Positions 33,143-33,763 of a DNA stretch of 58,038 bases are shown here, piece after piece. The notes beneath the pieces were generated by a model. That model had not been told where the DNA came from and ran no database searches. It saw nothing but the letters and a program-made list of their open reading frames with translations. A program made the position numbers and the translations under genes. Source of the DNA: Chloroflexaceae bacterium (GTDB lineage: Bacteria > Chloroflexota > Chloroflexia > Chloroflexales > Chloroflexaceae); NCBI GenBank assembly GCA_028282325.1, contig JANQID010000093.1, positions 1-58,038 of the forward strand. Reading direction: 5' to 3'. Position 1 is the first letter of the stretch. Each line of letters opens with the position of its first letter.

Positions 33143-33205
33143 CTGGTGGTCCTCGTCATCCTCCTGGTGGTCCTCGCCACCCTCCTGGTCGTCCTCATCG
33201 TAGCA
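33143..33205. repeat. three tandem 21-bp units (minisatellite)
   Basis: Units starting CTGGTGGTCCTC at 33143 and 33164 and a diverged one at 33185. The plus-strand frame that continues past the DUF4386 stop would read as a Val/Leu-rich stretch, but it has only a GTG start and no ribosome site. Confidence 0.75.
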
Positions 33206-33312: not shown

Positions 33313-33406
33313 CGAGAGCGCGTAGGAGTCGAACCCACCAGCGAAGTTCGTCACCCCGCTCACTGGTTTTGAAGACCAGGACAGCCACCGGGCCGCATCC
33401 GCTCTC
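33313..33406 (-). tRNA. selC: selenocysteine tRNA (anticodon UCA)
   Basis: A 94-nt cloverleaf on the minus strand. The anticodon arm is a 5-bp stem CTGGT/ACCAG with loop CTTCAAA, giving UCA, which reads UGA. Diagnostic tRNA-Sec traits are a 6-bp D stem with a 4-base loop, a long variable arm (AGCG/CGCT closing a large loop), the T arm GTGGG-TTCGACT-CCTAC, and an 8-nt acceptor 3' strand whose eighth pair is a G-G mismatch. CCA is not encoded. The gene implies UGA recoding in this organism, yet selA, selB, selD and an obvious selenoprotein are absent from the window. Confidence 0.92.
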
Positions 33407-33413
33407 ATTGGGG

Positions 33414-33442
33414 ATTGTAGAAAGGTATCCAGGGGTTGTCAA
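33414..33442 (-). promoter_or_regulatory. selC promoter, placed for transcription from the first tRNA base
   Basis: Minus-strand TTGACA at 33437-33442, a 17-base spacer and TACAAT at 33414-33419. The spacing from the -10 box to the tRNA 5' G (33406) is seven bases, which is where transcription is expected to start. Confidence 0.85.
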
Positions 33443-33517: not shown

Positions 33518-33763
33518 TTACAAGCGGAAGAAATCGACCACCTTATCGCGCTCTTCCTCGCTAGGCATCATCTCGATGAACGACACCCGATGCCAGGGAA
33601 ACAGCACATACTGCACCCCCGCCGCCAGATACGGCACATCCTTGCCGTCGCGTTTGCGCATATTCGACACCTTGATAAACGCATCGGACGGCTGCGGATC
33701 CTGCTCCAGATCGGCCAGCACCGGATCCTCGCCGACAATATGCAGAATAACCGTTTTTGCCAC
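33518..33763 (-). CDS. conserved hypothetical small protein
   Basis: An 81-residue soluble protein (VILHIVGEDPVLADLEQ, then DVPYLAAGVQYVLFPWHRVSFIEMMPSEEE). It uses a GTG start at 33763 with AAGGAG seven bases upstream. The strand pattern and the 'ADLEQ' helix suggest a small Sm- or SH3-like fold, but no family is firmly recognised. It lies downstream of the FHA gene on the same strand, 144 bases away, so it may be the last gene of the kinase/phosphatase operon. Confidence 0.7.
   Translation of the reverse strand: MAKTVILHIVGEDPVLADLEQDPQPSDAFIKVSNMRKRDGKDVPYLAAGVQYVLFPWHRVSFIEMMPSEEERDKVVDFFRL

Follow-up and report, generated by a model that had tools for sequence, protein, structure and literature searches.

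We observed that the gene for the selenocysteine tRNA (selC) in a Chloroflexaceae bacterium is preceded by a promoter whose position would allow transcription to begin at the first base of the mature tRNA. The window analysed here is the whole 58,038-nucleotide stretch of DNA to which all coordinates refer. We propose that a sigma-70/sigma-A promoter sets initiation at G1 of tRNA-Sec, that the primary transcript is leaderless and that this spacing is kept by selection; from the sequence comparisons described below, we put the probability of this reading at roughly 0.68. The features concerned, all on the minus strand, are as follows.

33406-33313, minus strand: selC, tRNA-Sec (UCA), from ARAGORN and Rfam RF01852.
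33437..33442, minus strand: −35 element TTGACA, from promoter scoring; 98% identity among 20 family members.
33414..33419, minus strand: −10 element TACAAT, from promoter scoring; 97% identity among 20 family members.
33407..33413, minus strand: discriminator CCCCAAT, 7 nt, with a pyrimidine at −1; position 7 is T and position 8 is G1.
33406, minus strand: predicted transcription start at tRNA G1, the 8th base after the −10 element, from the spacing and the start-site rules of PMC5730371.

ARAGORN called a tRNA-Sec with anticodon TCA at 33406..33313 (minus strand), and the match to RF01852 (70.6 bits, E 1.8e-12) was above the gathering cut-off. The gene folded alone into the canonical tRNA-Sec cloverleaf, with 6 bp in the D stem and 8 bp in the stem of the variable arm. 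The discriminator base of the tRNA is G73, and CCA is not encoded. Its acceptor stem consists of 7 bp plus a G7a.G66 mismatch; the acceptor/T stack has 13 layers when counted by length, with G at both 7a and 66. The same G/G combination was found in 20 of the 31 selC genes of the family, Chloroflexus-type members having C-G; G.G is also present in most Chloroflexia, and Bacillota_A mostly have G.A. As the second-best RF01852 match in the 4.6-Mb genome (48.1 bits, just above the cut-off) sits at a tRNA-Leu gene, the selC of the window is the only convincing tRNA-Sec gene of this genome. The genome also encodes the SelB elongation factor (TIGR00475, 351 bits, above cut-off). ARAGORN, RF01852 and folding thus agree with the first-pass annotation of this DNA, which had described a minus-strand tRNA-Sec with anticodon UCA, a 6-bp D stem and a long variable arm. 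Its description of TTGACA-N17-TACAAT seven bases before the 5' G of the tRNA was likewise confirmed by the coordinates.

We scored promoters with a sigma-70 matrix of the E. coli type at a cut-off of 9 bits and recorded the distance that separates the tRNA from the −10 element (d). The selC promoter of the window is of the sigma-70 type (TTGACA, 17 nt, TACAAT) with d = 7. The promoter-like pattern at selC was the best of the region, with 11 of 12 positions matching, where shuffled sequences are expected to give 0.4 patterns of any kind.

The family of the window (Chloroflexaceae) contributed 31 distinct selC genes from at least 13 genera, as judged by genus codes. A clear sigma-70 promoter was present in 29 of these, and d was either 6 (7 genes) or 7 (22 genes); the expectation for d = 6–7 from shuffled upstream sequences was 0.00. 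The promoters with an 18-nt spacer between the boxes usually have d = 6, and therefore the distance from the −35 element to G1 is constant in 27 of the 29 genes. Across the 20 members having the 17/7 arrangement, the −35 and −10 boxes reached mean pairwise identities of 98% and 97%, compared with 27% upstream of the promoter, 37% for the spacer and 42% over the 7 nt that precede the tRNA. Because the flanks and the spacer are near-random while the boxes are almost invariant, the position of the selC promoter is, on this comparative evidence, kept by selection in Chloroflexaceae. The base at −1 was C or T in all 29 genes with a clear promoter; we dropped it as a proof on its own, since a pyrimidine is also found at −1 in 83% of the longer-leader selC genes.

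We also scanned a contig collection of 84,980 species with the pattern TTGACA-N16..18-TANNAT-N5..8-GAGAGCG. There were at least 119 matches; among the matches listed, 10 lay exactly at the 5' end of a tRNA-Sec, one fell at a tRNA-Gly and the remaining 108 did not coincide with any tRNA start, and those tRNA-Sec matches that have named records belong to Chloroflexota. A chance origin of the pattern was dropped, as shuffles gave values near zero and the scan matches rarely fell at other tRNA starts.

Next, we compared selC with non-Sec tRNA genes that are first in their cluster and have a clear promoter, using the genome of the window and two others of the same family, G040 (5,258,541 bp) and G025. 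A d of 7 or less was found in 1/24, 2/32 and 0/25 of these genes, respectively (3/81 in total), against 29/29 for selC (Fisher test, p = 1.6e-23, with kin genes treated as independent). Similarly, in a Desulfobacterota genome with a short-spaced selC (G842), none of the 22 other tRNA promoters had d of 7 or less. The comparison with other tRNA genes in relatives, suggested by the first-pass annotation, hence separates selC (29/31 at 6–7) from the rest (3/81). Its remark that such an arrangement is not usual in bacteria holds within the family, though selC is not unique in this respect: a distance of 6–7 nt is shared by Lys-UUU in the genome of the window and by two genes of G040, Lys-CUU and Leu-UAG. 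These three exceptions could mean that the selC spacing is merely the short tail of tRNA promoters that generally give short leaders, with no selection for a leaderless start. We consider this quite improbable, as the spacings of the exceptions are unconserved across the three genomes (6, 9 and 8 for Lys-UUU; 23, 6 and 14 for Lys-CUU), whereas selC stays at 6–7 in all clear cases from the 13 or more genera even though the spacers have diverged. For matched non-Sec tRNA genes, d shifts by a mean of 2.8–5.3 nt between genomes. The tRNA-Lys UUU gene of the genome of the window (contig C84) has TTGCCA-17-TATAAT ending 6 nt before its first base; in relatives the distance is 8–9 nt.

Where within this spacing would transcription start? 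RNA polymerase of E. coli initiates preferentially at the seventh nucleotide past the −10 element, position 8 being the next most used; it favours initiation on a purine that follows a pyrimidine, and a pyrimidine-rich discriminator moves the start downstream (PMC5730371). In the window, G1 is the best single predicted start, because position 8 is a purine that follows T and the discriminator begins with CCCC. In the seven family members with d = 6, G1 falls exactly at the preferred position 7. We therefore favour G1 over a very short leader, in which transcription would start mainly 1–3 nt upstream (at A33408 or A33409) and RNase P would trim the product, as in the other short-leader tRNAs of the family. 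A start at A33408, giving a 2-nt leader, is the main rival to G1. Such a leader would be compatible with the adenines five and six bases past the −10 element, with the purine at −2 in 21 of the 29 family members and with the several other tRNA genes having d of 8–10 nt (leaders of about 1–3 nt). We nevertheless regard it as unlikely, as position 8, a purine after a pyrimidine, is the better start, the CCC discriminator favours downstream starts (PMC5730371), and the seven 6-nt members have G1 at the preferred position. The first-pass annotation had placed the start at, or one base before, the mature end. The first option is supported by the position, the start rules and the conservation over at least 13 genera; the second is less likely than either G1 or the A at −2, because −1 is T, a poor initiator.

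An upstream origin of the main transcript was also considered. An 81-aa same-strand ORF ends at 33518, 111 nt upstream of selC, and no terminator was found in the window between this ORF and selC; because of this, leader-bearing read-through precursors may also exist. That read-through from this ORF, or another promoter, supplies the main transcript as a precursor to be cut by RNase P appears very improbable to us, given that selC has a near-consensus promoter of its own, conserved in relatives whatever their flanks, and that the 81-aa ORF is without a Pfam match. On the other side of the gene, an inverted repeat (TTTGAC...GTCAAA, 33310-33281) lies just 3' of selC. It is weakly stable (−5.1 kcal/mol, z −0.9) and is not recognisable as a terminator, there being no T run after it. 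An imperfect tandem repeat (33143-33202; 21 nt, ~3 copies) was observed between selC and the DUF4386 gene.

We then looked at the spread of the short spacing. selC genes were collected from 150 genomes of the class and 301 of the phylum, from 119 genomes of Bacillota_A (the phylum of a Caloranaerobacter genome), 200 of Pseudomonadota (that of a Parvibaculum genome) and 99 of Desulfobacterota, the name used here for the phylum to which a Deltaproteobacteria genome belongs; a sample of their upstream regions was analysed. Among clear promoters, d was 6–7 in 3/3, 5/5 and 4/5 cases for three other families of Chloroflexia (f3, f4 and f7, respectively), in 7/19 for other Chloroflexota, in 9/25 for Desulfobacterota and in 5/33 for Bacillota_A. 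In Pseudomonadota it was 0/4, a clear promoter being present in just 4 of the 23 selC genes scored. The predicted short spacing is thus patchy across bacteria and near-fixed in the family of the window. Two Herpetosiphon-like families (f2 and f10) were left out of the support, as their boxes were below the score threshold. By eye, f2 (TACTGT, 7 nt) and one further genus, g38 (GATACT, 6 nt), look similar to the family of the window.

The selC of E. coli is under its own promoter-like site as well, with 31 nt between TATAAT and the tRNA 5' end, which predicts a leader some 24 nt long, and selC plainly has a leader in most Bacillota_A. These cases indicate that tRNA-Sec can function when its transcript begins with a leader. 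The acceptor/T stack of tRNA-Sec has 13 pairs instead of 12 (PMC5330540). In E. coli, RNase P cuts pre-tRNA-Sec one base outside its usual site, leaving the long acceptor stem (Burkard and Soll 1988, cited in PMC3874170; PMC11143913). The genome studied here has a full-length match to the class A RNase P RNA (RF00010, 75.5 bits, E 5e-23, below the curated cut-off of 100). This match speaks against an RNase P-free genome of the Nanoarchaeum type; with the RNA present, RNase P is at most bypassed for tRNA-Sec, and the other tRNAs of the genome need it.

The best reading of these data is a leaderless, triphosphate-ended primary transcript with its start predicted at G1. In the mechanism that we propose, a housekeeping sigma-70/sigma-A promoter would be placed so that RNA polymerase starts on G1, and the primary transcript (pppG...) would already have the mature 5' end, making no RNase P cut necessary. 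This spacing would be held by selection in Chloroflexaceae and in several other lineages. A stack of 13 layers, against the usual 12, may leave the RNase P site ambiguous by one base, which a start at G1 would fix; avoidance of such ambiguous cleavage is the likely benefit, as we infer it. The 5' phosphates may later be removed from the transcript. More tentatively, a leaderless tRNA-Sec might have been selected and have arisen repeatedly in bacteria (Chloroflexota, Desulfobacterota and Clostridia), as it did in eukaryotes, owing to poor recognition of the 13-layer stack by RNase P, and the 5' triphosphate of the bacterial tRNA may stay, tolerated by SelA, SelB or SerRS; this wider proposal is speculative, and we consider it less likely than not.

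Trimming by RNase P is regarded as a step common to all bacterial tRNAs. Eukaryotic tRNA-Sec is transcribed without a leader, from the first base of the tRNA. Its gene has a hybrid upstream promoter (PMC8362101), used by Pol III; the tRNA species is the same and a start at the mature G1 is also predicted here. However, the promoter described here is a bacterial sigma-70 promoter that is not homologous to the eukaryotic one, and the tRNA would be of the 8/5 type as opposed to the eukaryotic 9/4. Nanoarchaeum equitans, which is without RNase P, also transcribes its tRNAs leaderless (PMC10941002), as is predicted for tRNA-Sec here; there the leaderless tRNAs offset the loss of RNase P, whereas here mainly one tRNA is concerned and the RNase P RNA is present. 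A dRNA-seq paper on P. acnes names RNase P as the source of its mature tRNA 5' ends, and an RNA-seq paper on C. difficile has tRNA-Sec among the detected RNAs. A conserved leaderless bacterial tRNA-Sec was not found in our literature search, which lay outside most subscription journals, so that earlier reports may exist, among them older studies of tRNAs transcribed without leaders in other bacteria; for leaderless bacterial tRNAs the search gave just Nanoarchaeum, an RNase P review and organelle papers. If true, leaderless tRNA-Sec conserved in RNase P-bearing bacteria would be a counterpart of the eukaryotic tRNA-Sec gene, and the unusual acceptor/T length of tRNA-Sec would suggest itself as the cause shared by both. 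The start at G1 is a directly testable prediction in the cultivable Chloroflexus aurantiacus.

Besides the promoter, we noted that selC appears to be a hot spot for integration in the family of the window. Between genera, the 3' flanks of selC were 65–98% identical up to the tRNA end at seven loci whose promoter sides are unrelated. In Oscillochloris sp. ZM17-4, transposon-end-like repeats lie directly 3' of selC (L117:145-520 and L151:6240-6580); they are followed by CRISPR-like repeats with a spacing of 73 nt and by two degenerate repeats. No cas or tns genes were found among the ORFs scanned. The 'spacers' of the two degenerate repeats copy the selC anticodon arm, and the region resembles the guide end of a selC-homing CRISPR-associated transposon. 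Ends related to this region were also present at two other loci (L094 and L119).
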